DNA of 64,000 nt from a bacterium (lineage in GTDB: Bacteria > Electryoneota > Electryoneia > Electryoneales > Electryoneaceae): the NCBI GenBank assembly GCA_020444265.1, contig JAHLLH010000002.1, positions 124,001-188,000 on the forward strand, written 5' to 3'. The position numbers and the translations under genes are program-made. Positions 59,943-64,000 of the stretch are shown piece by piece. The notes under the pieces were generated by a model that worked only from the letters and a program-made list of their open reading frames with translations, was not told the DNA's origin and did not search any database. How positions within the stretch are numbered: position 1 is the stretch's first letter; each line of letters starts with the position of its first letter.

Positions 59943-59987
59943 GTGTACGATCCTCCCTGGTTCCCGGGGGGTGAACATAGACAAGCT

Positions 59988-60070
59988 GCCCGAGTGGTGA
60001 AATTGGTAGACACGCAGTGTTGAGGGCGCTGTGCCTTCTGGGTGTGCCGGTTCGAGTCCGGCCTCGGGCA
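59988..60070 (+). tRNA. tRNA-Leu (GAG anticodon)
   Basis: Acceptor stem GCCCGAG / CTCGGGC, D arm GTG...CAC with GG in the loop, anticodon stem CAGTG / CGCTG with loop TTGAGGG (anticodon GAG), a long class II variable arm, and T arm GCCGG-TTCGAGT-CCGGC. Discriminator A; the 3' CCA is not fully encoded (ACCC follows). The long variable arm and A73 fit leucine. Confidence 0.93.
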
Positions 60071-60079
60071 CCCTGAAAA

Positions 60080-60236: not shown

Positions 60237-60707
60237 CTAGGCGCGCTTTTCCATCGCGATTTCGATCTTGAGGGTAAGGCCACCGGCATCGAAGGGGATG
60301 ACGACCGGGGGCGCCTGGACGTTATGGTCGATGAGGATGTCACGGCCGACCTGGACCTTCGGCAGGCTGATCTTGAAGGATTCACCGGTTTGGCTCAAGC
60401 GGCTTTTCCCACCCCCAGCGACCATGTTGACCAGCTCGCCGACACAGTCGATAACATCAGCGTTCAAAGAATTCGCAGAATCACCCGTAAAACGTTCGTA
60501 GACAAGGTAGGCGAGTTTATCGTCTAGGGAGAGGCCAACAGAACCGTGCACACCCTCATTGGCGAAGCTGATCAAGCCGGTGATATCGGCCATCGCCTGC
60601 TTGTTCGCCTTGAGGAAGGGCTTCAGGGCAACCGGGGTAAGTCCAGTCATCGTGGAGAAGGTTTCAACCAACGCCTCGATGAAGGGATTGATGTAACGAA
60701 CATCCAT
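60237..60707 (-). CDS. cheX: CheX-like chemotaxis phosphatase family protein
   Basis: 156 residues. MDVRYINPFIEALVETFSTM at the start, GLSLDDKLAYLVYERF and the family active-site helix CVGELVNMVAGG with the Glu-x-x-Asn pair, and the C-terminal strand LTLKIEIAM, match CheX/CheC-related phosphatases. CheX removes phosphate from CheY; here no chemotaxis gene is near, so it may serve another receiver such as those of the hybrid kinases (inference). Ribosome site weak. Confidence 0.8.
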   Translation of the reverse strand: MDVRYINPFIEALVETFSTMTGLTPVALKPFLKANKQAMADITGLISFANEGVHGSVGLSLDDKLAYLVYERFTGDSANSLNADVIDCVGELVNMVAGGGKSRLSQTGESFKISLPKVQVGRDILIDHNVQAPPVVIPFDAGGLTLKIEIAMEKRA

Positions 60708-60915: not shown

Positions 60916-61395
60916 TTACGAGTGGTGCCGTCGATAGGAAATCAACACATCAAGGAAAAATTCCCTCCCCAATGGTGCGTCCCTTCGTGTCCGGATCGAC
61001 CGAAGCATCGCCTCTTCTTCCGCTGTCAGGTTGAGCATCAAGCGTGTTCGGTCATCCGCCAACAGCTCCTCCAGGCCGGGATGCAGGTGGCCTTCACGGA
61101 TCGGTTCGTATCTCCGCTCGGCCGCCTTCTGCACGACATCGCCCTCGACCCCACCACCCCTCTTATCGGCATTCTCCGGGTCGCTCCAAAGCTCGGAAGG
61201 GGAGACCCGCAGCACCTTTGCCAGACGTAAAATCGTGTCCGAACGAGGGTTTTCATGGTTGTTCTCGATCAGGGAGATGGTGGCGCGATCAATCCCGGAT
61301 CGGTCCGCGAGAGCCTGCTGGCTGAGAGCTGCACGTTTCCGTGCGGCACGCAGATTCTCTCCGAAGAGACGAGTCGTGTGGTCGTTGGTTGTCAT
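60916..61395 (-). CDS. XRE-family transcriptional regulator, divergent from capsid-like genes
   Basis: 159 residues from the ATG at 61395 with GGGAGGGAG immediately upstream; the open frame seven codons longer is rejected. Helix-turn-helix at about 10-65 (AARKRAALSQQALADRSGID, RATISLIENNHENPRSDTIL), a phage-repressor/XRE form. The C-terminal 80 residues are acidic and helical (LEELLADDRTRLMLNLTAEE) with no protease or sugar-binding motif, so unlike LexA/CI self-cleaving repressors. It faces the head-gene module across a 531-bp space holding a palindromic operator candidate, which fits a repressor of that promoter. Confidence 0.85.
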   Translation of the reverse strand: MTTNDHTTRLFGENLRAARKRAALSQQALADRSGIDRATISLIENNHENPRSDTILRLAKVLRVSPSELWSDPENADKRGGGVEGDVVQKAAERRYEPIREGHLHPGLEELLADDRTRLMLNLTAEEEAMLRSIRTRRDAPLGREFFLDVLISYRRHHS

Positions 61396-61564
61396 GGCTC
61401 CCTCCCGCAGGAGCACTGCCGTTTAGGATATCCCAGATTGAAACTACATTAAAAGTTGGTCGTACGCAACAACACAACAGATATTCAAGAGTCCTTCGGG
61501 GATTCATATCCTATGGAATAGCAACAGATTGACGACGAGACGAGCAAACAAAGAGTCTCGCGGA

Positions 61565-61584
61565 GTGTTGTCTATTGACAACAC
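61565..61584. promoter_or_regulatory. Perfect 20-bp palindrome, candidate XRE operator
   Basis: GTGTTGTCTATTGACAACAC: two 8-bp arms around TATT. The right arm contains the -35 hexamer TTGACA, so a bound repressor would block RNA polymerase. Confidence 0.65.
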
Positions 61585-61603
61585 CACAACAACAAACTAT
61601 CTT
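61575..61603 (+). promoter_or_regulatory. Sigma-70-type promoter of the capsid-like module
   Basis: -35 TTGACA (61575-61580), 17-bp spacer, -10 TATCTT (61598-61603). The spacing is ideal and both boxes are close to consensus. Transcription would start near 61610 and run toward the small acidic gene. Confidence 0.65.
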
Positions 61604-61613
61604 ATGTCTGTCG

Positions 61614-61631
61614 GCTGAACAAATGTTCAGC
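61614..61631. promoter_or_regulatory. LexA/DinR-type palindrome at the promoter start
   Basis: GCTGAACAAATGTTCAGC, a perfect 18-bp palindrome containing GAAC-N4-GTTC, the Gram-positive-type SOS box core. It lies just downstream of the predicted start, where LexA binding would repress. Confidence 0.5.
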
Positions 61632-61810
61632 TTGTGCGGGGAAACCCACTTGACAACCCACCAGTGCAGCGGTCCCCTATTTGCCGTCCTGCCCCGCCGC
61701 CCCGCTTCGGACTCGGCGCCCCTGATTGTCTGCCACCCCGGTCTTCCCCCTTCGCCCGCTGCATCGCCTCCCGCCCACCGGGTACTGCCCCTCCCAGGCA
61801 GACCGTCCCC

Positions 61811-61846
61811 CGCGACGGATGGACCCCCGCATGTCCATCCGTCGCG
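61811..61846 (+). other. 14-bp perfect hairpin in the 5' leader
   Basis: CGCGACGGATGGAC and its exact reverse complement around an 8-base loop CCCCGCAT. No T run follows, so it is not an ordinary terminator. It is 80 bases before the first gene of the module. Confidence 0.6.
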
Positions 61847-61926
61847 TCCTCAACAGATTCGAGGCTCAAAGAAGAGCCCTCTTCCATCTCGCGCCTCTCG
61901 GCGCACCCACCAAACGAGGAGTCGTC

Positions 61927-62298
61927 ATGGACCTCCACCCCAAGCTGCTCGCCGCTGCGGACATGTGTGACGCCGGCGAGGATGTCAACTTCGATGAACT
62001 CGCTTTTCTGCTGCGTTACGCGGCCGATGAGCTGGCCGATCGTCCCCAGGCAACCAAAGAGCGGGATCAGCTGCTCGAACGACTTCGTACGCGTCTCCTG
62101 GCTCGATGTGATCTCTTGAATCGTCCCACTTCGGAGCAGGATGTCGCGCGTAACGGCACCCTGGCCCAGCTCGAGGCATTGGACGAGACCCTCGACCACG
62201 AGCTACGAGCCCGTTATCCGCAGCCGGGTGAAGCCCCCGTACCAGAACATGCCCCGAAAGAAGTGTTTCCCGCCGACCAGTTCCTCAGCGGACGGTGA
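61927..62298 (+). CDS. Small acidic helical protein, first gene of the capsid-like module
   Basis: 123 residues from the ATG at 61927 with GAGGAG six bases upstream; upstream in-frame sequence is proline/arginine-rich noise. Mostly helical and acidic (DLHPKLLAAADMC, LERLRTRLLARCDLLNR, GTLAQLEALDETLDHEL), with a proline-rich tail. No family recognised. The position ahead of decoration and capsid genes would allow a scaffold or assembly role, but this is guesswork. Confidence 0.65.
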   Translation: MDLHPKLLAAADMCDAGEDVNFDELAFLLRYAADELADRPQATKERDQLLERLRTRLLARCDLLNRPTSEQDVARNGTLAQLEALDETLDHELRARYPQPGEAPVPEHAPKEVFPADQFLSGR

Positions 62299-62346
62299 TC
62301 CCACCTCATTAACCAAAACGGAAGACCTACCAACAAGGAGTTCACA

Positions 62347-62781
62347 ATGAGTACACCCCTCGTGATTGACAACGAAGGAATCGGCGGCGGTCCCTTCCTG
62401 ACCATGAGCCTCGACGCCTCCGCCGGGTTCACCCAGGACGACATCGATGGCAACACCACAAGCTGCCGTATCTCGGACAGCAACGAGGTGTCGAAGGGTA
62501 GCGCTGGAGACAAGCTTTTCGGCAAGGTGGTCTGGGTCTCGACCCAGCTGGTGAGCGGCACGACACGTCCTGTCAGCTGCGCCATCCAGGCACGTGGTGT
62601 GGCCCGCTTGCTCACCGACACTCCCTCCCCGGAAGTGAATCAGATGGTGGAACTCGCGGGTAATGGCAAGGTGCGGAAAGCATCTGCCGATGCTGACATC
62701 GCGGTTGGTGGCCACCTGATGCGTGGCCAGGTGATCGCGGTGGACAGCAGCAATGGCACCTGCGATGTCTGGCTGGGGTAA
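62347..62781 (+). CDS. Head-decoration-like protein (DUF2190-like)
   Basis: 144 residues with an AAGGAG site six bases before the ATG. Small beta-rich protein: KLFGKVVWVSTQ, RPVSCAIQARGVARLL, NGKVRKASADADIAVGGHLM and RGQVIAVDSSNGTCDVWLG. The pattern of a short barrel ending with a CDVWL-type strand resembles phage head-decoration/DUF2190 proteins that precede a major capsid gene, and a capsid-like gene does follow. The assignment rests on context and general appearance. Confidence 0.5.
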   Translation: MSTPLVIDNEGIGGGPFLTMSLDASAGFTQDDIDGNTTSCRISDSNEVSKGSAGDKLFGKVVWVSTQLVSGTTRPVSCAIQARGVARLLTDTPSPEVNQMVELAGNGKVRKASADADIAVGGHLMRGQVIAVDSSNGTCDVWLG

Positions 62782-62789
62782 GAGAGGGG

Positions 62790-62898
62790 TGGCCCTGGCA
62801 GTCCCATGCCCGGGTGTCACTCCCACAAGGATGTGTCAGATCCGAAGATCTGACACGTCTACCGATGAATAGACCCGACTAGTCAAGCAAGTCGGGTC
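62790..62898. repeat. Three host-type hairpin repeats between head genes
   Basis: A GGTGGCCC...CACTCCC copy (62790-62826), GTGTCAGATC-CGAA-GATCTGACAC (62833-62856; a TTCG loop on the other strand), and GACCCGACT...AGTCGGGTC (62872-62898). The first two belong to families seen elsewhere in this chromosome. Confidence 0.8.
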
Positions 62899-62951
62899 AC
62901 CCACCCAACGCCACTCACCTCTTCAACATCCTCCCACACAAGGAGTTTCCC

Positions 62952-64000
62952 ATGTCGCTTGACCTGACTCGTGCCCAGTCGCTGAAGGGCACCATCATCG
63001 AACATTCCCGTTCCGCCAACCTCTCCCTCTACCACGAAGCACAGGAAGCGGGCTTGAGCCTGACCGACTGGCTCGAGAAGCAGGACCCCAGTCCCCGTGA
63101 TGCTGACGGCTGCATCAACAGCCGTCTCGATGCTTTCGAACGTCAGCTCGCCGTGCAGGAGATCAAGACCAACGGTCCGAACGCGATCACCGTCGAACAG
63201 TTCTTTGTCGGTGGCGCGATGATCCTGCTGCCGGAGTACATCCTGCGTGAAATCCGTCACGGCTACCAGCTAGTCCAGGATCCGACCGACCTGATCGCGG
63301 TCAGTGTGCCGGAACAGGGTCCGACCGTTCGTCCGATCTACATCAAGACTGATGACGCCAAAAAGTCGGTCGGGAAGCGTGCTTCCGGCGGCGCCGCCTA
63401 CCCGAAGGTGCAACTGCTCTATCGTGACAAGGAAGCAGCGATTGTTGACCGTGGCCGTCAGTTCGATTTCAGCTACCGTGTCGTCAAAAACCAGAAGCTC
63501 GCCGAATTCCGTGTCTTCCTCTGGTGGATCGGCGCGCAGCTGGCCTATGACGAAATCGACACGATTTACAGCATCGTGAAGGACGGCGATGGCACCAGCC
63601 CGGCGGCATCGGATGTATTCAATGGCACGGCTGGAAGCCTCAGCTACAAGGACCTGGTCCACCTCGCCAGCAGCTTTGATGTCCCTTCGCAGATGACCCA
63701 CATCCTCGCCAACCGCGATGACATCGAAACAATCCTCAACCTGAGCCAGTTCCAGGACGCGCAGGCCTTCAGCGCCAAGCAACTTATGCAGACCAGCGGC
63801 CGTGCCGCGAATTTGCTGCCGATGAACGCCAAGCTGGTGGCGGTGCCCGGTGCGACTTCGACCGAAATCATGGCGATCGACAGCCGTTTCGCAGTACGTG
63901 AAGCTGTCAGTCAGCCATTGATGATCGAGGCGGACAAGGTGATCGAGCGTAAGCTCGAGACCGCCGTGGTCTCGAAGGAATCAGTCTACACCGTGATGGT
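62952..64000 (+). CDS. HK97-type major capsid-like protein (3' end off window)
   Basis: An open frame of 349 codons runs from the ATG at 62952 (AAGGAG six bases upstream) to the right edge. The N-terminal 90 residues are helical and could be a delta/scaffold domain (LYHEAQEAGLSLTDWLEKQD). From there the order of segments fits HK97-fold capsid proteins: VGGAMILLPEYILREIRHGY, VPEQGPTVRPIYIK, LLYRDKEAAIVDRGRQFDFS (beta strands before the spine), FLWWIGAQLAYDEIDTIYSI (spine helix), HILANRDDIETILNLSQF (A-domain) and MAIDSRFAVREAVSQPLMIE. Encapsulins share the fold, but the long N-terminal part and the decoration-like neighbour favour a phage or gene-transfer-agent head. Confidence 0.72.
   Translation, partial: MSLDLTRAQSLKGTIIEHSRSANLSLYHEAQEAGLSLTDWLEKQDPSPRDADGCINSRLDAFERQLAVQEIKTNGPNAITVEQFFVGGAMILLPEYILREIRHGYQLVQDPTDLIAVSVPEQGPTVRPIYIKTDDAKKSVGKRASGGAAYPKVQLLYRDKEAAIVDRGRQFDFSYRVVKNQKLAEFRVFLWWIGAQLAYDEIDTIYSIVKDGDGTSPAASDVFNGTAGSLSYKDLVHLASSFDVPSQMTHILANRDDIETILNLSQFQDAQAFSAKQLMQTSGRAANLLPMNAKLVAVPGATSTEIMAIDSRFAVREAVSQPLMIEADKVIERKLETAVVSKESVYTVM

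Follow-up and report, generated by a model that had tools for sequence, protein, structure and literature searches.

At the right edge of a 64,000-nucleotide stretch of Calditrichota DNA (the window; C11:124001-188000 in contig coordinates, from an assembly of 4.33 Mb), an XRE-type regulator, a small acidic protein, a decoration-like protein and a capsid protein are encoded one after another, raising the question of whether these head genes belong to a phage or serve the host. An earlier note on the window had offered three options, a prophage of unusual gene order, a gene transfer agent or a capsid-derived compartment, and had remarked that the capsid gene is preceded by no terminase, portal, protease or integrase gene.

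Organisation of the head gene cluster

The four open reading frames that the earlier note had named were all recovered at their positions by ORF reading. The capsid call is borne out by a match to the PHROG 3922 major head protein (E 7.2e-45), and the XRE gene does lie divergently upstream of the head genes. The remark on missing partners holds on the 5' side of the capsid gene, where we find no terminase, portal, protease or integrase gene, but terminase, portal and protease-like genes lie 2-6 kb to its 3' side (Table 1). They had been missed because the window edge cuts the cluster, the capsid gene itself extending 31 bases past the window end. The head operon is permuted, with its partners present.

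Table 1. Features of the cluster, in window positions or, where so marked, in positions on contig C11 or locus L009
Feature	Position	Strand	Basis or remark
XRE/Cro-C1 family regulator (HTH_3)	60916..61416	-	Pfam HTH_3 2.4e-15
Intergenic region between divergent genes, presumed to control the head genes	61417..61927	.	position between divergent ORFs
Small acidic protein, ~124 aa	61928..62298	+	ORF, AGGAG before ATG 61928
Decoration-like protein, 144 aa	62347..62781	+	capsid-associated homologues
Palindromic dispersed host-genome repeat, copy within cluster	62822..62902	.	
Major capsid protein, 359 aa	62952..64000, on to C11:188031 (full ORF L009:2953-4032)	+	PHROG 3922
ParE-like toxin	C11:188085-188387 (L009:4086-4388)	-	beyond window
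p126	C11:188754-189134		beyond window
p283	C11:189131-189982		beyond window
Terminase large subunit	C11:190111-191499		PHROG 2, 1.5e-35
Portal	C11:191513-192781		PHROG 3753, 5.5e-29
Protease-like protein	C11:193159-193872		beyond window
Secreted protein	C11:193913-194440 (L009:9914-10441)		beyond window
TM/coiled-coil protein	ends C11:195198		beyond window

The XRE gene, which has homologues near the module in nine genomes of families f1, f6 and f7, is likely to be a local repressor. The small acidic protein finds blast homologues in three further genomes of f1 and is possibly a scaffold or size-determining protein. The decoration-like protein has homologues of 40-70% identity, encoded alongside the capsid, in 31 Calditrichota genomes, and its profile also matches the gene immediately before a related gut capsid; neither this protein nor the acidic one has a family match in PHROG or Pfam. 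For p126 we suggest a putative role as head fibre or connector. The model of p283 is confident (pLDDT 88) and shows beta domains leading into a helical bundle. We call this protein adaptor-like because of its position and its C-terminal helical bundle; in the fold search no clear adaptor came up and the one match, to a baseplate domain, was weak (E 5.7e-05, TM 0.25). In the protease-like protein one histidine and one serine are invariant in 14/14 sequences, suggesting that it may be a head-maturation protease. The gene next after that of the membrane coiled-coil protein encodes a host rhomboid protease.

The G+C content of the cluster is the same as that of its neighbourhood. The palindromic repeat has more than 30 further matches in the genome and a second copy in the cluster (L009:8832-8913), both cluster copies being intergenic; a host dispersed repeat in two gaps of the cluster is expected of long-resident DNA. 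A 93-base repeat lies 5' of two later genes (L009:9028, 10828). In the window's genome the ParE-like toxin gene, with a probable antitoxin, lies antisense between capsid and p126. Directly to the left of the cluster are a CheX-like gene (window 60237-60707) and a tRNA-Leu(GAG) gene (window 59987-60073).

Fold and catalytic residues

The PHROG matches of capsid, terminase and portal point to an origin from the structural and packaging genes of a tailed phage. An alignment of 25 terminases shows Walker A (KSRQ), Walker B (DE) and the nuclease aspartates to be invariant throughout, and the terminase profile matches T4 gp17 (1e-18) as well as a second large terminase whose structure is known. The capsid protein falls just below the cut-off for Pfam Phage_capsid_4. 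For the capsid fold, which the earlier note had put up for checking, the AlphaFold model is weak (mean pLDDT 61.9); its best Foldseek match is HK97 (E 0.014), and HK97-type capsids make up nearly all of the top PDB matches, none of which is better than E 0.014. Sequence searches of the PDB with the capsid and portal profiles returned nothing at E 1.

Spread and gene order across the phylum

A profile search found the capsid in 34 of the 39 phylum genomes, the window genome included, at 55-77% identity, and in 13/347 other sampled bacteria. Each of the 34 genomes has a single copy, which in G012 is split over two contigs. The terminase was found in 33/41 genomes searched, and all 33 belong to the phylum. 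Among the five phylum genomes in which the capsid is absent, G017 and G018, both good assemblies, are also without terminase. The capsid gene of G025 (L068:15099-16154) is interrupted in frame by one TGA, at codon 71, representing either a sequencing error or a recent loss.

The order decoration-like protein, capsid, p126, p283, terminase, portal, protease-like protein is kept in most lineages. In family f6 the decoration-like gene is placed after p126. Stretches of host genes split the head set in G009, G011 and G014, and in G009 about 15 kb of host DNA separates terminase from portal. Just 5' of the f6 terminase lies a gene (L064:16699-17136) for a small protein, possibly a small terminase, whose helix-turn-helix match is weak.

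In f2 the genes 3' of the protease-like gene encode a secreted protein, in some genomes a LamG-like protein, small membrane proteins and an endolysin-like protein of the Amidase_2 family; f1 likewise has a secreted protein there, together with the membrane coiled-coil protein. The cluster of the window's genome showed no endolysin gene. In several lineages, proteins whose starts resemble signal peptides are encoded next to head genes (L009:9914-10441; L071:15981-16541; L217/L218). They would be odd for a particle assembled in the cytoplasm.

Vertical inheritance and selection

In the trees of capsid, terminase and portal alike, all families come out as clades with the minimum number of changes. 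Capsid distances follow those of the rpoB tree closely (r 0.943, median ratio 1.02). The terminase (r 0.83, ratio 1.94) and the portal (r 0.86, ratio 2.55) correlate with rpoB as well, evolving about 2 and 2.5 times faster, respectively. The cluster is inherited vertically with its host. The capsid is under purifying selection, five pairs giving dN/dS of 0.07-0.10 and the sixth 0.18; for the other cluster genes dN/dS ranges from 0.07 to 0.56 in pairs with unsaturated dS. Conservation at the protein level across a phylum, together with such low dN/dS, is far beyond chance.

Search for tails, integrases and attachment sites

A complete ordinary prophage just downstream, the finding that the earlier note had named as telling against its proposal, is absent over the ~27 kb of ORFs that follow the cluster, and neither tail nor integrase nor lysin genes were found there. 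Across the phylum no tape-measure gene is conserved: the tape-measure family PF10145 occurs in 8/39 genomes and the T4-type tube PF06841 in one of the 39, and the neighbourhoods read contain no conserved tail-like gene. Since the tail families searched were these two, there is room for a very short tail. Tail proteins diverge fast, and a podovirus-like short tail or tail genes at a distance could be missed.

We also considered whether tails might come from the genome's own phages and rejected this source. By ORF reading, both tape-measure matches in the window genome lie in Mu-like prophages with baseplate genes and capsid genes of their own, and such phages are not phylum-wide. The Mu-like prophages of the window genome are at L146 (G000:C2:1-20000) and L147 (G000:C17:90000-109537).

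Among the integrase matches listed, five of the six in the genome, none is on contig C11. The 3' end of the tRNA-Leu gene has no downstream repeat, no direct repeat of at least 14 bases joins the searched flanks, and the ORFs and families read around the locus include no integration or replication genes of the cluster's own.

Relatives in other phyla and in gut records

Searches centred on capsid matches outside the Calditrichota found the capsid in 13/14 genomes of one further phylum and in 73/80 of another, nearly always as one intact copy. In a joint capsid tree each phylum forms one clade. A single-contig genome of the larger phylum (G428) encodes, in this order, a portal, a different terminase, a protease-like, a membrane and a decoration-like protein, the capsid, a p283 homologue, a secreted and a membrane protein; no recognised tail gene occurs in this run.

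Three gut records deposited as phages, MT835508, MT835769 and MT835952 (L080, L081, L082), encode a homologous capsid at about 31% identity. Like the cluster described here they combine it with terminase, portal and a protease-like gene, but the order is terminase-portal-protease-capsid, the gene context is Bacillota-like, p126 and p283 are unmatched, and the decoration-like gene is matched in only one of the three. In MT835508 the tailless terminase-portal-protease-capsid module is surrounded by Rnf, ribosomal-protein and transporter genes; because these housekeeping genes flank the module, the record is a piece of bacterial chromosome.

A probable domesticated head-and-packaging cluster and its alternatives

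We think it probable that this is an ancient phage-derived head-and-packaging cluster, domesticated and vertically inherited, which functions, as far as its anatomy tells, in the manner of a gene transfer agent with no tail or a very short one. We do not class it as a gene transfer agent, the defining act of which is the transfer of host DNA. Of the three options offered at the outset, the gene transfer agent comes closest, and the unusual-order prophage and the capsid-derived compartment fit less well. Under the explanation we favour, a host lineage would have domesticated the head and packaging genes of a phage long ago. In the window's family and some related families the divergent XRE regulator would control the head genes, the cell would make HK97-type shells, and the terminase ATPase/nuclease would fill them with DNA through the portal. 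Shells would presumably exit by lysis; f2 encodes an amidase of phage type next to its head genes, along with small membrane proteins. The packaged DNA would most likely be host chromosome, since no replication, integration or tail genes specific to an element were found.

An alternative is that a domesticated head is joined by a tail encoded elsewhere, or by a very short podovirus-like one, to make a complete gene transfer agent whose genes are scattered. There is precedent in RcGTA, whose genes are spread over five loci (PMC10883770), and in the FpGTA of Faecalibacterium, whose second operon includes genes for baseplate, fibre and receptor binding (PMC12946183); p126, the secreted proteins and the LamG-like protein could be fibres. 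However, the scarcity of both tail families in the phylum and the want of a conserved tail-like neighbour gene in the regions read make us regard a hidden tail as unlikely. We give still less credence to a host-used capsid with another job, that is, a shell that is filled with DNA or protein and serves storage, toxin delivery or defence. The lack of a tail for delivery and the secreted and membrane proteins within the cluster would suit such a shell, but terminase and portal are conserved and the terminase keeps all its catalytic residues, neither component being needed by encapsulin-type compartments, and no gene for a cargo enzyme is conserved beside the capsid. A compartment made of capsid alone was rejected on the same residues and on the terminase, portal, adaptor-like and protease-like genes that follow.

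Capsid-forming PICIs are mobile: these satellites carry integrase and replication genes and obtain their tails from phages. That the cluster is a tail-borrowing satellite of this kind, or the remnant of an ordinary prophage, seems to us very improbable, although it has head and packaging genes without a tail, a regulator at one end and tailed Mu-like prophages in the same genome. Against this stand inheritance through the phylum in one copy per genome under purifying selection, the lack of a C11 integrase among the matches listed, of a flanking repeat and of a tRNA-derived att site, and the occurrence of the cluster in genomes without detected tail genes. An ordinary prophage was rejected on its vertical and non-sporadic distribution (34/39, one copy) and on the same integrase and repeat results, and a capsid-forming PICI on vertical inheritance and on the lack of integrase and replication genes in the locus.

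Comparison with known systems

The closest observed comparator is FpGTA, whose particles have been seen, whereas the cluster described here is known from its genes. FpGTA has a 10.5 kb operon and forms particles of ~40 nm without identifiable tails, which carry 8.4-8.9 kb fragments of the host chromosome and for which its authors suggest a podovirus-like form (PMC12946183). Compared by description, FpGTA I/II and our cluster share a head operon of ~10 kb with terminase, portal, a gene in the scaffold position and capsid, near-ubiquity in the host group (for FpGTA, a genus), lysis genes and a lack of replication genes, and no tails were seen in FpGTA particles and no tail genes found in our cluster; they differ in that FpGTA has been reported in one Gram-positive genus and has its second operon, whereas here the order is capsid-first and the spread phylum-wide. 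With agents of the RcGTA type (Rhodogtaviriformidae) the cluster shares phage derivation, very long vertical inheritance, scattered genes and the lack of replication and integration genes, but RcGTA has a full head-tail cluster, and no tail genes were found here, this comparison too being by description.

Capsid-forming PICIs likewise encode heads and packaging without tails, but their integrase, replication genes and mobility are not seen here. Encapsulins are HK97-type shells kept by the host, as the shell proposed here would be; they are not known to have a terminase or portal, both of which are conserved in this cluster. We know of gene transfer agents in few lineages, and those described to date resemble tailed phages, FpGTA perhaps excepted. 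Our literature search found no report of a gene transfer agent in Calditrichota, and none for Zixibacteria either.

Across the phylum the capsid has a rate of evolution about as slow as that of RNA polymerase, which implies that the cells depend on the shell. It is quite possible, and we propose it tentatively, that a DNA-packaging shell passed on vertically and lacking a tail belongs to the core traits of at least three bacterial phyla and has relatives in gut Bacillota, and that it ranks among the widest and oldest domesticated viral systems, with delivery by means other than a tail. Tailless particles raise the question of how DNA would enter a recipient, or whether transfer is the purpose at all. 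If host DNA is packaged, gene transfer agents would be far older and more widespread than recognised, and virome surveys would also misread such host DNA as phage.
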